Of a DNA stretch of 33,491 nucleotides, positions 10,681 to 18,073 are shown piece after piece. The position numbers and the translations under genes are program-made. Every line of letters begins with the position of its first letter. Position 1 is the first letter of the stretch. The notes beneath the pieces are model-generated. The model searched no databases. It saw only the letters and a program-made list of their open reading frames with translations, and was not told the origin of the DNA. The DNA is taken from positions 1-33,491 of the forward strand of contig DATLAJ010000058.1 of assembly GCA_035527515.1 (NCBI GenBank), written 5' to 3'. Origin of the DNA: a bacterium (lineage in GTDB: Bacteria > B130-G9).

Positions 10681-10793
10681 CTGTCAACGGATAAGCAGTC
10701 CGGCAAGCTAAAAATGCTTCACAGAGGCACAGTCCAATCTCGCGAAGCGCCTGTCAACAGATAAGCAGTCCGGCAGGCTAAAAAATGTCTCAC
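10681..10793. repeat. Pair of ~43-bp direct repeats, 70 bp apart
   Basis: Copies at 10681-10722 and 10751-10793 share CTGTCAAC, GATAAGCAGTCCGGCA and GCTAAAAA with only a few differences. The second copy reaches the stop codon of the propeller gene (10790-10792). They lie between two same-strand genes, so they could be a regulatory site pair or a duplicated gene end. No hairpin with a T-tract is seen. Confidence 0.7.
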
Positions 10794-12244
10794 AAGAATG
10801 TCGTGAAGAGCTCGTCCACGCCGCCGGTTGACTTGGCCTGCTCCAGCGCCTCGCGCGATTCCTTCAAGTGCCCCATCGCCGCCTCAGGGCAATCGTCCAT
10901 GCTAACCGCCTCAAAAAAGCGCTTAACCGCGGGAACGAGCTCGCCGCGATGCAGGTGAATAAGACCCAGCAGATCGAATAGCCTCGCGTCGCTGCTACGA
11001 ACGGCAGCGACCGCCATCCTCCCGTAGAACCCCTGCCTTGCCCCCTCATCAAGGTTGCCAACATGCTGCAGAAGCAGCGGCAACGCTCGCATGTAGAATG
11101 CGGCCAAACACCGGAACAGCCGCTCGGGCGTCTCGTCCAAAACCATCGCCCCAATAACGCGTGCCAGCGTTTCCTCGGGCAGCTTGCCGATCAGCTTGTA
11201 GCTGCTCTCTTGCACAGCCCCATCCTTGATCGCACCGACCAGGGCTGTCAGGCTCTCGGCTGAGGAGCGCGCAAGAACTTGCAGAGAGAGCGATGTGTAG
11301 TCTCGCTCGTTGATGAGGCGCAAAGCCCGCTGGACAAGTTGCTCGGGGTTCATGAAGTAGTTGCGGCACATAAGCAGCTCATCATTCCCACAACAGACAG
11401 CGATCGAGGCCGCATCGTCAGAGAGCCAGATGTGGATTGGCCGCCTGGGCACCGTGAAATGCCAGACGAGCTTCCCATCTTTGTCAAACATAAAGAGCAT
11501 CGGCTTTAATCTCGACGCTGCGATGACCCAGTCGCCTGCCCCGTCGCAGCCGATCTTGCCGATCTCGTCGCCCGCATCGGCAGAATAGACGCGGCTTCCG
11601 TCCATACCCAGCCCCACAACATGCCCATCGAACGTCGCAAAGAACACGCGCGACAGGTCCGGCAGCACCGCAAGCCCCTTGACGCTGGATGCTGTCCTGT
11701 GGTCAAACACCAACGTCTGCTCCGAGTCGAGGCAAACGATGCGCCTCGCAAAGCCAAGAACTACCTTTGAGCCGTCGCGGGCCCCAACGAAGAACTGATA
11801 CGCATCCTCGAACTTCTCCTTCCATAGGACCGCGCCCGGCTGCCTTTTGAGTAACGATTTTTTGGTCGCATCGTAGAATGAGACCGACGAGGTGTGCTTC
11901 GTGGCGTCCGAAACGCCCAAGAAAGCAAACCGCCCGTCAGGCGACAGAACGGCGTTATCGACGCGCTCCTTGACGCGCCTCAGCTGATTCCCTGACCTGT
12001 CAAAGATGACAAGTCCATGGTCCGTCGAGGCGTAAACGTGCTGCCCCTCGGGCGACACCCCGACTGAGGTCGCCCTCCCCTCCAAAGTGTGCTCCCAGAG
12101 CACCTCGCCGCCAGCATCAAGAAGCATCACAACCCCGTTTGCAAAGACCACCGCCACACAGGAGCCATCAACAAAGGGGCTCATCTCACTGGGCAGCCTC
12201 GGGAACTTCTTGCTGAATACGATATCAAGCGCTGAAGGACTCAT
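10790..12244 (-). CDS. Beta-propeller protein with helical C-terminus, partner of the giant kinase
   Basis: 484 residues. It starts 3 nt after the stop of the kinase gene (TAAGCTATG) with AGGGAG overlapping that stop, so the two are translated from one mRNA. Residues ~20-310 contain WD40/PQQ-like blades: VAVVFANGVVMLLDAGGEVLW, YASTDHGLVIFDRSGNQL, LSPDGRFAFLGVSD and FMFDKDGKLVWHF. The last ~170 residues are all helical (VQRALRLINERDYTSLSLQ..., LLGLIHLHRGELVPAVKRFFEA), resembling a TPR-like solenoid. There is no signal peptide, so it is cytoplasmic. The propeller-solenoid layout suits a scaffold or sensor bound by, or phosphorylated by, the kinase; this role is inferred from the operon. Confidence 0.75.
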   Translation of the reverse strand: MSPSALDIVFSKKFPRLPSEMSPFVDGSCVAVVFANGVVMLLDAGGEVLWEHTLEGRATSVGVSPEGQHVYASTDHGLVIFDRSGNQLRRVKERVDNAVLSPDGRFAFLGVSDATKHTSSVSFYDATKKSLLKRQPGAVLWKEKFEDAYQFFVGARDGSKVVLGFARRIVCLDSEQTLVFDHRTASSVKGLAVLPDLSRVFFATFDGHVVGLGMDGSRVYSADAGDEIGKIGCDGAGDWVIAASRLKPMLFMFDKDGKLVWHFTVPRRPIHIWLSDDAASIAVCCGNDELLMCRNYFMNPEQLVQRALRLINERDYTSLSLQVLARSSAESLTALVGAIKDGAVQESSYKLIGKLPEETLARVIGAMVLDETPERLFRCLAAFYMRALPLLLQHVGNLDEGARQGFYGRMAVAAVRSSDARLFDLLGLIHLHRGELVPAVKRFFEAVSMDDCPEAAMGHLKESREALEQAKSTGGVDELFTTFL

Positions 12245-12247
12245 AGC

Positions 12248-15200
12248 TTAACTCCCTGGCACTTCTATATTAAAAGCTTTAAGTTTATTTCTCAAAGTAT
12301 TCCTCGACATACATAGCTCCTTGGCCGCTTTCCGAATGCTCCAACCCTCTGTGCCAAGCGCTCGCCTCAGCACCTCCTCCTCAACGATGGCCAACATCTC
12401 CTTCAGCGTTACTCCATCCTGAGAAAGCGCGGCAATCAAGTCCGCTATCCTCTCGCTCCGGGGCACGGACAGGCCCGGCTCCGCCGGCAGAAAGTCAAAA
12501 TTGGAGCTCCTGATGATCTTGCCCGAGCTCTCCGTCAAGGCCCGCTTGATCGCGCTTTCCAGCTCCCTCACGTTTCCCGGCCAATCATACTCCATCAGGA
12601 GCGCAATCGCGTCCTTCTCAATGCTGGTGACCTTCGACGAGAGCTCCTGGCTATACTTCTTGATGAAATGATGGGCCAGATGAGGGATGTCTCCCTTACG
12701 CTCCCGCAGAGGCGGAAGTTTGATCGGAACATCGTTGATCCTGTAGTAGAGGTCCTTGCGGAACATCTGGCGCCTAACGAGCTTCAAGAGGTCTCGGTTC
12801 GTCGCGGTGAGTATCCTGACGTTCACGTGGATAGTCTGTGTCCCACCAACTCGCTGAAACTCCTTGTTCTCGATCGCCGTGAGCAGCTTCCCCTGAAGCT
12901 CTGAGGGCAAGTCCCCGATCTCGTCGAGAAAGAGCGATCCCTTGTCCGCGACCTCGAACTTGCCGATCTTACGCGCACCTGCGCCCGTGAACGCCCCCTT
13001 CTCGTGTCCAAACAGCTCATTCTCCATCAAGCTCTCCGGAATCGCGGCGCAGTTGATCTTGACGAATGGGCCGTCCTTCCGAACCCCGTTGTAGTGGATG
13101 GCGCGGGCGACGAGCTCTTTGCCCGTCCCGCTCTCACCCTCGATCAGAACCGCGACCTGCGTGTCAGCGACCTGCCTTATCTTCCTGAATACATCCTGCA
13201 TCACGCCGCTCTCGCCGACGATGTTCTCGAACGTCAACTGAGGCGCGATGGCCTCCCTCAGGTCAATGTTCTCCGCCTGTAGCGACTCCTTCTTGCGCTG
13301 CAACTTCTCGAGCAACATCGCTTTCTCAATGGCCATCGAAGCCTGCGTAGCGAAGGCCGAAAGTAGATATAAGTCCTGCTCGGTGAAGACGGTCGCAGAG
13401 AGGCTACTGTCAACATAAACCGTCCCGGCCACCTCCCCATTTATGACGATCGGCACACAGACTATCGACCTGATGTCATAGAGCGACACGCTCTTGCTCT
13501 CGTGGAATCTGGGGTCGCTCTGTGCATCGGTGGTCACCAGTGGCTGCCCGAGATCAACGACCCGCTGGATGACGCTCTTGCTTATACGAGTAACGTCCTC
13601 GATAGTCTGCTCGTCAACCTTGCGCGCGACCCGCGTCTCCAAAACACCGGTCTTGGCGTCCTTCAGCATGATCAGCCCACGCTCCGCACCGAGAATGCCT
13701 ATCACCGCGTCCATGACCCGATTCAAAAGCTCGTCAAGATCGAGCAGCGACTCGAACAGACGGGTTACTCTGTAAAGCGCTTTAAGCGCCGGCGAGCCCC
13801 GCTTGACCTCGCCAGTGTCTCCCCATCTGAGCGATTCGATTCTGTCATCGAGCTGGGCAGCCTTCTCCTTCATCTCCAGCCCTAAGAACTGCTCGCGGGA
13901 AAGCTCAAGGCTTAGAAGCGCGTCCGACCGCAGACCCGCCTCAAGCTGAAGCTTCGATAGATACTCCGCCATCTCCCCTATCTTGAGAAAAGCCTCCATC
14001 TGCTTGAACATGGCTACCGCCTCACTCGCGAGCTCGATCGCCTTAGGATAATCACCTTCGGCCGCTTTGACGCGCGAGAGAACTCCGAGGCATAAAGCCT
14101 CCTCCCGGACCGCGGACGCATCCCGCGCGAGCGACAGAGCTTTGGAACCGTCCCGCCCAGCCGAATCACGCTCCCCTAGCCCGAGCGCCGCCTCAGCCCG
14201 GATGCGGTGCGCAATCGAAGCGTCCCGGTTGTCGAGATGTTCGCCCCGGGCAAGCACCGCCGACGCAGTCTGGCTCGCCCTTCCATAATCCTCCTCCGCA
14301 TTGCAGACACTTGCCTCGGCCAGCTGAGCCCTAAGCCGAACACCCGCGCTGTCGAGCGACTTGAGCACAACATCCAGTTTCTTTACCGCTGCGCGCGCAT
14401 CTTTGGTCCTGCGCTCGGCCAGAAGAACCTCCATCTTGAAAACCAGGCCGAGCGACTCAACCTCTGTGAAGCCGTTTTGCTCGCTCATCTCAAGGCTCTC
14501 GTCGATCTTCTCCAAGGCCTGCCCAGTCCAGCCCTGCTCGAACAGCGCAATCCCGAGATGCTGAAGCTGCCGCGCGACCGAGTACTTGTTCCCAAGCCTT
14601 CTTGCTATCAAGAGTGCTTTACTACAGTGCTGCGCCGCCTCTTTGGGACGACCACGCAGCGCAAGAATCGAGGACAGGTTGTTGTGAGCCACCAACAGGC
14701 CCTCCTTGAAGCCCTCCTTTGCGAAGTGGTCCAACGCCTCCTTGTAGGACTTCTCCGCGTCCGCATACTCGCCCAGATGTTGGCTAATCGTTCCGTGCGT
14801 TACGAGATTCCGGGCGTGCTCGGACGCATCCTGAAGGAGTCTGCTGGCGCCAATAGCCTTCTCGATATGCTTCAGGGCCTCCTTGTAACGACCTGCGCTG
14901 TCATCGATTATCGAGAGGTTCCGGAACAACCTCGGTAAGTAGTGAGAGTCCGCCATAACCGGCCCAACTGCATCCTCGGCGCTCTCTGAGGCAAGCGCCC
15001 TGAGCGCCCTCTTGGGCACGAGCTCAAGCGCATGCACGAACTCCTCCTTGGCCTTTTCGTAATGGCATTGCCCAAAATATGTCTGCCCCAGAAAAGTGTA
15101 AAGACGCGCAAGATGTGCCCTGACCTGCGAAAGCCGCCTACCACGAGCCTTGCGCCGTTCAGCCTTGAGCCTATCAATGAGCGATTGATAGAGGTCTCGG

Positions 15201-17752
15201 GCCAGCTCGAAATTGCCACGGCCGCAGTAGATCACGCCCAGCCTACACGTGGCCATCACCTCATCCCGAAGCGAATCTTGTAGATTCTGCGCAAGCGCTA
15301 TCCCCTCCTTGAGAGCCTCGACAGCCTCATCATGGTCGCCAAGAACGAAATCAAGGTCCCCTAGCCTAAAAAGAGCTCGACCTAAAAACAGATTCTCGCC
15401 CTCCTTCCTGGCCACATCCACCACCTGGGCTGACACAAGCCTCGCATCCTCAAGCCTAAACCGGCCCATAAGAAAACGGCATCCAACCTCGTAATTACGG
15501 TTGAGCAAGCCGGGCAGGCCGGCCTGGACGGCATGAATCGCGGAGGTGGCCCGAAGTTGAGCGGGCTCGGCGGGCGGAAACGCTTCAAGGCCATGCTCTT
15601 CCTTAGATGGCTCACTCTCAAGCGAGGTCGCCAACGCATCGCACCTCTGAGCGATCAGCCTATGTATGGCCTGCCTTTCCTCCTGCAAGACCCGCGAGGA
15701 GACGAGCTGACCCAAGACGGGATTTGCGAGGCAATAGGACACGCTCTTCTCGTCCGTCTGCATCTCCACAAGGAGCCCTTGCCTGATGAGCTCCTCCAGA
15801 CCCTCCTGGGCTGAGGAGGTGCTCGTCCCGCCTAGATTGGCCATTAGCGAAGGCGAAAAACACTCGTTCAACACCCCCGCCTTGATAAGTATGGACATTG
15901 CCCCGGCCGAAATCCGCGAGAGCCTCGTCTCAACAACCTGACTCAGACTTCTGGCTGGAGCGAAATCCTTCAAACTGTCCGCTCTAAGCTCCCAACGCCC
16001 ATCGGTGAAGTGAACGATGTCCTCCTCAAGGGCAGACTCGATACACTGTACCAAGAGCGCCGGCAAGCCACCTGTCTTCTCCAAGAACGCCGGGGCCGCC
16101 TCTTGGCTGAAAGCGTTCGGCATGAACGAGGCGTCGATCAACGAGGCTACCTGAGACTCATCAAGAGGCAGAAGCTCCACATTCTCGACCTCAACGCTGT
16201 CCAACATCTGCTCGAGCTCCGAGTTCATCGCAGAGCCGCCGGTCAAGACGATCGCAACCTTCCTACCTGCACCAGTTGCGGCCACGGACCGGACAAGCGC
16301 CCATAGCGACTCACACCTTCTCTCGTCTGTGAGGTCGAAATCGTCCAGCAGCCACACCACCGGCCTCGTTTCCCACGCGTCAGAGACACAGTCCACGAAG
16401 CGCCTCAGAAACTCTTGCCGCATGTTGGCAGACCAGTCGCCAACCTCATCTGGCGGCAGGAGGTCCGGCGAATTGGCGCGGGCCGAGCTCCCACCTGACT
16501 GGACTGACTTGCCGATAGCGCCCGGTAGGGACTTCATATCGAACGACAGCCCAGCGCTGTTGAGCGTTACCGACACAAAGCCTGCAACGTCGAGGTTCTG
16601 TGCTCCTGACGGCGAGACCATCGTAGTTAGCTCGCAGAGCTGTAGCTCGGATTTGAGCGCGTCAAGAAACGCGGTCCTGCCAGAACCGCTCGCGCCTTGA
16701 GCGAGAACCACGAGGCAGCGGTCTAGGCGCTCGTGCACTGAATAAGGCGGCTGTTCCTCGAACATCTCAGCGAACCGCTGGCTCGAGAGCCTGCTCAATA
16801 TGGCTCTCAGACACTGCTTCAGGGCGCCAGAGCGGCCGAAGAGCTGGTTTGGTCGGATGTTGGGGGTTACAGCGAATGTTCTGGGCACTCGCGGCCCGAG
16901 CGCCTCGACCAGCTTGGCAGAGACAGCAGCGACGGAACCTGGCCTTTGAGAGGGCCTTTTGGCCAATAGATGGTCAACCGTTTCCCCCACGAGCGGTGGG
17001 AGGTCGGGGGCGATTGACGAGAGCTGCGCTGGCCTCGCGTGCAGATGCTGCTCGACGTATCCCTCAATAGTCTCGGACGAAAACGGCAGCTGTTTGGCGA
17101 AGAGCTCGTATGCCAGGACTCCGAGTGAATAAAGGTCCGAACGGACGTCCGCACGGCAAGCCATGAACCGCTCTGGAGACATGTATTCCACGGTTCCGCT
17201 GACTCGAAGGGAGGGCTCGGCAAGCGCGCTTGAGAGGCCGAAATCCATCAGTGTTGCGAAGCCATAGTCGTAGAGGTCTGATCCTGCAAGCGGAAGGTTT
17301 ACACCGGCGGGCGGCTTTGGCCGAACAATGATGTTGCTCGGCTTGATGTCCCCGTGAAACACGCCCTGCCCATGTATGTAAGACAGCGCAATGCAGACTT
17401 GCAGAAGAAGGGCCATGATCGCGTCTGCGTCCCGCTCCGCGCACCACTGCACGATCGATTGCCCCTCGACAAAATCCATCGTGAAGTAATACCGACCCCG
17501 CTCCGTTAGGCCGAAGTCATAGACGCTCACCGTGTGTGGATGTTTGAGACGAGAGGTCAGCATGAACTCCTGCTTGAACTGCCAGGCAGAGCCCGGGCCC
17601 ATAGATTCGTCAAGAAAGAGCTCCTTAAGAGCCAGCACTCGCCCCAGGTTCCTGTCGAATACCTTATGGACAGCGCTGGAGCCCCCACGCCCGCACTCTG
17701 CCAGAACCTCGTAACGCCCCTCTATGACCTTGTAGCCGGCTTTCTCGATCAT
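12248..17752 (-). CDS. Giant regulator: Ser/Thr kinase - AAA ATPase - TPR - GAF - sigma-54 activator - Fis HTH
   Basis: About 1834 residues from the ATG at 17752; an in-frame TTG at 17770 is possible. The N-terminal kinase (~13-285) has the GRGGSS loop, LALKEL lysine (K43), HGDIKPSN catalytic loop, DFG and GTVEYMSPE. HGD replaces HRD, so it is a non-RD kinase. An AAA_16-like ATPase follows with Walker A GASGSGRT (~360) and Walker B VVWLLDDFD (~470). TPRs run from ~790 to 1240. A GAF domain spans ~1330-1480 (RVTRLFESLLDLDELLNRVM to FATQASMAIEKA). Then comes a full NtrC-type AAA+ domain (~1505-1735) with GESGTGKE, an intact GAFTGA loop for sigma-54 contact, LFLDEIGDL and YDWPGNVREL. The C-terminus is a Fis-type HTH (IRKAAKELCMSRNTLRNKL). 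It should bind DNA and drive sigma-54 promoters under control of kinase and sensory modules. No sigma-54 gene or clear -24/-12 promoter is in the window. Confidence 0.93.
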   Translation of the reverse strand: MIEKAGYKVIEGRYEVLAECGRGGSSAVHKVFDRNLGRVLALKELFLDESMGPGSAWQFKQEFMLTSRLKHPHTVSVYDFGLTERGRYYFTMDFVEGQSIVQWCAERDADAIMALLLQVCIALSYIHGQGVFHGDIKPSNIIVRPKPPAGVNLPLAGSDLYDYGFATLMDFGLSSALAEPSLRVSGTVEYMSPERFMACRADVRSDLYSLGVLAYELFAKQLPFSSETIEGYVEQHLHARPAQLSSIAPDLPPLVGETVDHLLAKRPSQRPGSVAAVSAKLVEALGPRVPRTFAVTPNIRPNQLFGRSGALKQCLRAILSRLSSQRFAEMFEEQPPYSVHERLDRCLVVLAQGASGSGRTAFLDALKSELQLCELTTMVSPSGAQNLDVAGFVSVTLNSAGLSFDMKSLPGAIGKSVQSGGSSARANSPDLLPPDEVGDWSANMRQEFLRRFVDCVSDAWETRPVVWLLDDFDLTDERRCESLWALVRSVAATGAGRKVAIVLTGGSAMNSELEQMLDSVEVENVELLPLDESQVASLIDASFMPNAFSQEAAPAFLEKTGGLPALLVQCIESALEEDIVHFTDGRWELRADSLKDFAPARSLSQVVETRLSRISAGAMSILIKAGVLNECFSPSLMANLGGTSTSSAQEGLEELIRQGLLVEMQTDEKSVSYCLANPVLGQLVSSRVLQEERQAIHRLIAQRCDALATSLESEPSKEEHGLEAFPPAEPAQLRATSAIHAVQAGLPGLLNRNYEVGCRFLMGRFRLEDARLVSAQVVDVARKEGENLFLGRALFRLGDLDFVLGDHDEAVEALKEGIALAQNLQDSLRDEVMATCRLGVIYCGRGNFELARDLYQSLIDRLKAERRKARGRRLSQVRAHLARLYTFLGQTYFGQCHYEKAKEEFVHALELVPKRALRALASESAEDAVGPVMADSHYLPRLFRNLSIIDDSAGRYKEALKHIEKAIGASRLLQDASEHARNLVTHGTISQHLGEYADAEKSYKEALDHFAKEGFKEGLLVAHNNLSSILALRGRPKEAAQHCSKALLIARRLGNKYSVARQLQHLGIALFEQGWTGQALEKIDESLEMSEQNGFTEVESLGLVFKMEVLLAERRTKDARAAVKKLDVVLKSLDSAGVRLRAQLAEASVCNAEEDYGRASQTASAVLARGEHLDNRDASIAHRIRAEAALGLGERDSAGRDGSKALSLARDASAVREEALCLGVLSRVKAAEGDYPKAIELASEAVAMFKQMEAFLKIGEMAEYLSKLQLEAGLRSDALLSLELSREQFLGLEMKEKAAQLDDRIESLRWGDTGEVKRGSPALKALYRVTRLFESLLDLDELLNRVMDAVIGILGAERGLIMLKDAKTGVLETRVARKVDEQTIEDVTRISKSVIQRVVDLGQPLVTTDAQSDPRFHESKSVSLYDIRSIVCVPIVINGEVAGTVYVDSSLSATVFTEQDLYLLSAFATQASMAIEKAMLLEKLQRKKESLQAENIDLREAIAPQLTFENIVGESGVMQDVFRKIRQVADTQVAVLIEGESGTGKELVARAIHYNGVRKDGPFVKINCAAIPESLMENELFGHEKGAFTGAGARKIGKFEVADKGSLFLDEIGDLPSELQGKLLTAIENKEFQRVGGTQTIHVNVRILTATNRDLLKLVRRQMFRKDLYYRINDVPIKLPPLRERKGDIPHLAHHFIKKYSQELSSKVTSIEKDAIALLMEYDWPGNVRELESAIKRALTESSGKIIRSSNFDFLPAEPGLSVPRSERIADLIAALSQDGVTLKEMLAIVEEEVLRRALGTEGWSIRKAAKELCMSRNTLRNKLKAFNIEVPGS

Positions 17753-17813
17753 CCCTCTCTTAGGCCTCAATTATCGCTGAAACCTCATTCATGAACCGCC
17801 TCAAAGCGTCTCG

Positions 17814-17842
17814 TATATAAGGCTTCGCTGCAAGAATGTCAA
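17814..17842 (-). promoter_or_regulatory. Near-consensus sigma-70 promoter of the kinase/propeller operon
   Basis: Read on the minus strand: TTGACA (17842-17837), a 17-nt spacer and TATATA (17819-17814). Transcription would start near 17807, some 55 nt before the ATG at 17752. This is the best promoter match in the window and suggests that the sigma-54 activator gene itself is read by the housekeeping sigma factor. Confidence 0.6.
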
Positions 17843-17894: not shown

Positions 17895-18073
17895 TTTTGG
17901 AGTGCGGCGGCTCGACTCCGCTTTGGCTGGCCGCGGCTTGACGCGGCCTGCGCCCTGTTAAGAAGGGTGAGGTTGTGTCGATGACGGCTCCAGGTTCAAG
18001 ATAGATGTTCTATCAGAGGGTGGTGTCAAGCCACCACCAATGAAGGCGGTGTCAAGCCACCGCACTCCAAGAA
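17895..18073. repeat. Cluster of short palindromes with a shared GGCTTGAC core
   Basis: Outer arms 17895-17921 and 18046-18073 form a long imperfect inverted repeat (shared TTGGAGTGCGG and GGCTTGAC-like parts). Between them lie the palindromes GGCCGCGGCTTGACGCGGCC (about 17929-17948) and GTGGTGTCAAGCCACCAC (18020-18037). The right arm holds GCGGTGTCAAGCCACCGC. All carry the same core in one or the other orientation, so the cluster looks like REP-type elements. It lies between the divergent kinase operon and pal. Confidence 0.75.

Follow-up and report, generated by a model that had tools for sequence, protein, structure and literature searches.

Can a eukaryotic-type protein kinase and a sigma-54 activator reside in one bacterial polypeptide, and if so, how might the one bear on the other? 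We addressed this question for the window, by which we mean the whole 33,491-nucleotide stretch analyzed; it is an entire contig (C58) of genome G000, a 3.47-Mb, 96% complete Candidatus Coatesbacteria MAG. A preliminary description had read a kinase, an AAA_16-like ATPase, TPRs, a GAF domain, a sigma-54 AAA+ domain, and a Fis-type HTH in a single frame. Pfam matches and motif inspection found all of these domains. In the features below, Pfam residue numbers are counted from an alternative start codon, TTG at 17770; numbering from the ATG is 6 lower.

17814..17842, minus strand: sigma-70-like promoter TTGACA-N17-TATATA (read by eye)
17753..17760, minus strand: likely ribosome-binding site AGAGAGGG, immediately 5' of the ATG at 17752 (sequence)
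12248..17752, minus strand: giant gene, kinase-AAA_16-TPR-GAF-sigma54 AAA+-Fis HTH, 1,834 aa (ORF, Pfam, orthologs)
16919..17713, minus strand: Ser/Thr kinase (Pkinase, residues 20-284, E 1e-34; Pfam, motifs)
16286..16720, minus strand: AAA_16, a MalT-PknK-like NTPase (residues 351-495; Pfam)
16673-16696, minus strand: Walker A of AAA_16, GASGSGRT, Lys to Arg (motif)
13871..15430, minus strand: TPR region, MalT-like (residues ~780-1300; Pfam)
13328..13741, minus strand: GAF (residues 1344-1481, E 8e-20; Pfam)
12722..13222, minus strand: Sigma54_activat AAA+ (residues 1517-1683, E 9e-70; Pfam)
13115-13138, minus strand: Walker A of the sigma-54 AAA+, GESGTGKE (motif)
12980-12997, minus strand: GAFTGA sigma-54 contact loop, exact (motif)
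12911-12934, minus strand: Walker B of the sigma-54 AAA+, LFLDEIGD (motif)
12497..12706, minus strand: AAA+ lid, AAA_lid_14 (residues 1689-1758; Pfam)
12272..12394, minus strand: Fis-type HTH, HTH_8 (residues 1793-1833; Pfam)
10790..12244, minus strand: propeller partner, 484 aa, seven-bladed beta-propeller with a helical C terminus (predicted fold, conserved operon)

The giant frame runs on the minus strand from the ATG at 17752 to a stop codon at 12250-12248; the plus strand holds many stops, and GC content along the gene is even except in the final ~35 codons. Orthologs of 1,823 to 1,841 aa were present in 3/3 other genomes of the family, with identities of 87, 61, and 54%. The preliminary description had raised the possibility that two genes were joined in assembly. 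Nothing but the odd architecture speaks for such an artifact, and it can practically be dismissed, since the orthologs are intact in three independent assemblies and are followed by the same downstream gene. The latter, encoding the propeller protein, begins 3 nt past the stop codon of the giant gene (3 to 4 nt in all four genomes). A full-length propeller partner was not found in the 141 other genomes searched, and a fold search returned generic WD40-type propellers only, giving no functional lead. The propeller protein, lineage specific and always coupled to the giant gene, is a possible sensor or substrate.

The N-terminal kinase matches PknA/PknB by sequence, and when the first 691 residues of the protein were modeled with AlphaFold (pLDDT 81.5), the structure fitted PknB with a TM score of 0.91 on the target. 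Its catalytic set is complete, with Lys (LALK), HGDIKPSN (Asp, Asn), and MDFG, and is of the non-RD type (HGD). By this motif set, the domain is a Hanks-type Ser/Thr kinase that is predicted to be catalytic, and the Lys, HGD, Asn, and DFG residues are invariant in the ortholog group (four species, three genera). The AAA_16 match scored 26.9 bits, under the 32.6 cutoff, with one ortholog reaching 34.0; the TPR_MalT match, at 55.8 bits, lies above its cutoff. The window protein lacks the catalytic lysine of the STAND P-loop, having an arginine in common with one ortholog, while two orthologs carry GASGSGKT; as a result, nucleotide switching of the STAND type may be altered or abolished here.

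Over its full length, the C-terminal half aligns with the solved structure of NifA (9qq6, residues 1328 to 1835, E 1e-88), with a score of 435.2 against the 528.85 cutoff of the NifA equivalog TIGR01817 (NCBIfam), which was not reached. The HTH_8 match scored 34.5 bits against a cutoff of 22. The Pfam matches of the giant protein included no HisKA or HATPase, and its C terminus consists of Sigma54_activat and HTH_8. Identity to the most distant ortholog is 81% for GAF, 69% for AAA+, 62% for the kinase, 57% for the HTH, 47% for AAA_16, and 45% for the TPR region, so GAF and then AAA+ are the most constrained parts and the TPR region is the least. The window protein and two orthologs have an exact GAFTGA; in ortholog L053 (6169-11637, genome G002), it is replaced by GAYTSA. 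Among known changes in this loop, Y at position 3 works, and S at position 5 is putative (PMC3162934).

The possibility of a sigma-54-free host was considered and rejected: PF04552 was negative in G000, but rpoN is present there in part, cut by a contig end, and is complete in the relatives G001 to G003. Counts of TGGCACG-N4-YTGCW relative to a reversed-pattern control were 8:0 in G000, 18:1 in G003, 5:5 in G001, and 3:4 in G002, an excess in the first two genomes and not in the others. Several -24/-12 sites lie 50 to 150 nt upstream of genes that were recognized by eye as those for FlgB, FlgF/G, and flagellin. From G000 to G003, the -12 element is often CTGCT instead of TTGCT, and the sites precede flagellar and secreted-protein genes. 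With RpoN present and such sites before flagellar genes, the lineage appears to make use of sigma-54. Promoters of the appropriate type are present in the host genome, and none is tied to the giant protein. The sigma-54 output that the preliminary description proposed is thus borne out at the level of sequence: the apparatus is intact in one polypeptide, and RpoN and likely sigma-54 promoters occur in the lineage. RpoN was found in 19/19 fusion-bearing genomes tested, compared to 117/145 overall, a weak enrichment.

The giant gene itself has no acceptable -24/-12 site nearby, which had been suggested as a place to look. A conserved sigma-70-type site is found instead, in a matching layout and with 17-nt spacing upstream of 4/4 orthologs (by eye), and sigma-54 autoregulation was therefore ruled out. 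A strict scan did not call TTGACA-N17-TATATA because it demands a T as the sixth base of the -10 element. Two tandem palindromes at 18020-18063 (GTGGTGGCTTGACACCAC / GCGGTGGCTTGACACCGC) were considered as enhancers and rejected as a dispersed repeat with ~60 close matches in the genome. The palindromic repeat at 17904-18063 (GCGGTGGCTTGACACCGC and relatives) resembles a mobile or REP-type element; several copies are arranged as inverted pairs ~116 bp apart.

We sought the same architecture in other bacteria with a profile of eight fusions in 386 genomes, scoring two candidates per genome, so that the counts are lower bounds, and with a kinase plus AAA_16 profile in 193 genomes. Open frames running from kinase to sigma-54 activator numbered at least 36, in at least 24 of the 386 sampled genomes. 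Pfam analysis of 28 fusions detected Sigma54_activat, TPR, and GAF in all 28, Pkinase and AAA_16 in 26, and HTH_8 in 25. Genome G153 encodes six fusions (L130, L131, L175, L185, L191, and L195), apparently a lineage expansion. Spread by plasmids was rejected, as none of the plasmid records matched the giant protein over 80% of its length. Rarity of the architecture is not supported, since fusions occur in no fewer than 19 of the ~259 family-level groups sampled. The preliminary description had allowed that the architecture might be both common and already studied. The first of these is partly borne out; as to the second, the open full-text papers searched hold no description of a kinase-sigma-54 fusion, subscription literature lying outside the search, so that an earlier mention is possible. 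Nor, as far as they are searchable, do the kinase surveys (PMC1262709, PMC2176072) or the sigma-54 activator survey (PMC3162934) mention one. Both halves belong to known classes, and their combination is apparently undescribed in the open literature searched. The statement that known giants of this kind usually terminate in a histidine kinase or cyclase is, roughly, a fair account of the literature; in our sample, sigma-54 outputs were at least as frequent, in shares biased by a profile built mostly from sigma-54 fusions and by classes partly assigned by motif rules. The PknK-like front end was also joined to HisKA/HATPase, SpoIIE, GGDEF, or no output.

Which parts of the fusion are kept can be judged from the 36 fusions, scored by simple motif rules, with loop variants taken from a published list (PMC3162934). 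All 36 keep the Walker motifs of the activator, and 32 have a sigma-54 loop of a functional type (GAFTGA in 24, an accepted or putative variant in 8), the remaining four carrying an ATGV-type loop for which loss of the sigma-54 contact is predicted. Of the 36, 28 retain the kinase motifs and 29 the AAA_16 lysine. By this pattern of motif retention, the activator is predicted to be the indispensable part, and the kinase is usual yet dispensable. In a Coatesbacteria paralog (L021, L056), GAFTGA is retained although the kinase active site is gone (HGN, DLG), which suggests that some members can do without the kinase. NtrC-type AAA+ proteins with an xATGV loop, namely, L009 (G000:C22:3316-4338), L085, L088, L122, and L127, form a group with 95% SH-aLRT support that spans a 458-aa stand-alone protein and kinase fusions. 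In the three xATGV fusion genomes tested (G104, G221, and G137), rpoN is present, so the loss of GAFTGA in this group is not due to loss of sigma-54. These proteins are possibly sigma-54-independent activators.

In a quick, weakly resolved tree, the fused sigma-54 domains are scattered among stand-alone activators, with 14 to 15 label changes, and a single sigma-54 clade, as expected from one origin of the fusions, was rejected (AU test, P = 0.014). The fusion has thus probably been made or reshuffled several times. Many branches have low support, and the claim is accordingly one of several origins or exchanges without a number. Trees of the kinase and activator domains were too poorly resolved to display coevolution. 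That the window protein arose by recent replacement of the histidine-kinase half within the same genome was also rejected, since the kinase domains of L022, L184, and L186 group apart from that of the window protein.

The reading that we favor, tentatively and at slightly less than an even chance, is that the giant is a one-component sigma-54 activator with a PknK-like STAND front and a NifA-like back, gated by ligand and multimerization and tuned by its kinase. By analogy, the union of a PknK/MalT-type front end with a NifA-like activator points to a one-component switch, and in STAND proteins, MalT and PknK among them, multimerization follows inducer binding (PMC4381067). The giant and its propeller partner would be made constitutively, probably from the sigma-70 promoter. 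A ligand at the TPR and/or GAF region would open the protein and permit multimerization, and multimerization of the front half would lead to assembly of the C-terminal AAA+ ring. The ring would bind an enhancer via the HTH and remodel RpoN-polymerase at -24/-12 promoters, and the kinase, within the multimer, might phosphorylate its own polypeptide or oligomer, thereby setting a threshold or duration. Gating of the giant by ligand and oligomerization is probable. Phosphorylation as a gate of the sigma-54 output is only what we infer, since the P-loop lysine is an arginine here and a paralog lacks the kinase active site. It is conceivable, though doubtful, that the fusions form a recurrent class, invented several times, in which a sigma-54 activator is phosphorylated by the eukaryotic-type kinase of its own polypeptide or oligomer, with ring assembly gated thereby.

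The same parts could be wired in other ways. The kinase might act in trans, for example, on the propeller partner, with the sigma-54 half under GAF/TPR ligands and the fusion coordinating two outputs. PknK has several separate phosphorylation targets, and in 4/4 genomes the giant gene is coupled to that for the 484-aa propeller protein, which was seen in this lineage alone; both points favor such a hub. Against it, no gene for a phosphatase or a phospho-binding (FHA) protein turned up among the neighboring genes scanned, and we regard this arrangement as rather unlikely. Less probable still is that the kinase and AAA_16 are mainly structural or ATP sensing, the NifA-like activator being switched by a GAF ligand. 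That GAF stands well ahead of all other domains in conservation is consistent with this idea, as are the losses of the AAA_16 Walker lysine in 7/36 fusions and of kinase motifs in 8/36, including the whole pseudokinase paralog, but it does not sit well with the invariance of the kinase residues among the window orthologs. A TyrR-like AAA+ half with no sigma-54 function seems very improbable: the ATGV loop of four other fusions and the GAYTSA of one ortholog show that the motif can change, whereas the window protein and two orthologs retain it exactly, and in GAYTSA the Y is a working change and the S a putative one (PMC3162934).

A one-component activator tuned by its own kinase would be of interest for sigma-54 control in general. 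A chain of Hanks kinase and activator would compactly link eukaryotic-type phosphorylation with sigma-54 transcription. NtrC-class activators are classically controlled by a His-Asp phosphorelay or by direct ligand binding; if the reading is true, sigma-54 transcription would come under Ser/Thr rather than His-Asp phosphorylation. Since at least 19 family-level groups carry the fusion, one could study it in a cultivable organism.

Each half of the giant has a counterpart among known systems. PknK of Mycobacterium tuberculosis, the closest characterized counterpart of the front half, likewise starts with a Hanks kinase, after which come a MalT-like NTPase and repeats, and it affects transcription; its chain is not known to contain GAF, sigma-54 AAA+, or Fis HTH domains. 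The transcription factors that PknK phosphorylates, VirS, PrrA, and MtrA, are separate proteins (PMC9045387), whereas the window protein has its transcription factor fused in cis. NifA, the best solved-structure match, has the GAF-AAA+-HTH order and GAFTGA in common with the giant, which differs in its 1,300 additional N-terminal residues. The output of MalT is LuxR-type DNA binding at sigma-70 promoters, and MalT has no kinase. It does, as here, combine an AAA_16/TPR sensor and a transcription output in one chain (PMC4381067). The HstK-type dual kinases share the front end together with GAF (PMC2176072, PMC1262709), but their output is a histidine kinase, in place of which the window protein has a sigma-54 activator. 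A two-piece counterpart of the giant is found within the host genome, at L022 (2868-9055, G000:C145), where the gene for an NtrC-type response-regulator sigma-54 activator (GAYTGA) overlaps by 4 bp a kinase-AAA_16-TPR-GAF-HisKA-HATPase gene. Because one genome thus holds both the single-chain protein and a histidine-kinase version, the two wirings can be compared there in their natural setting.
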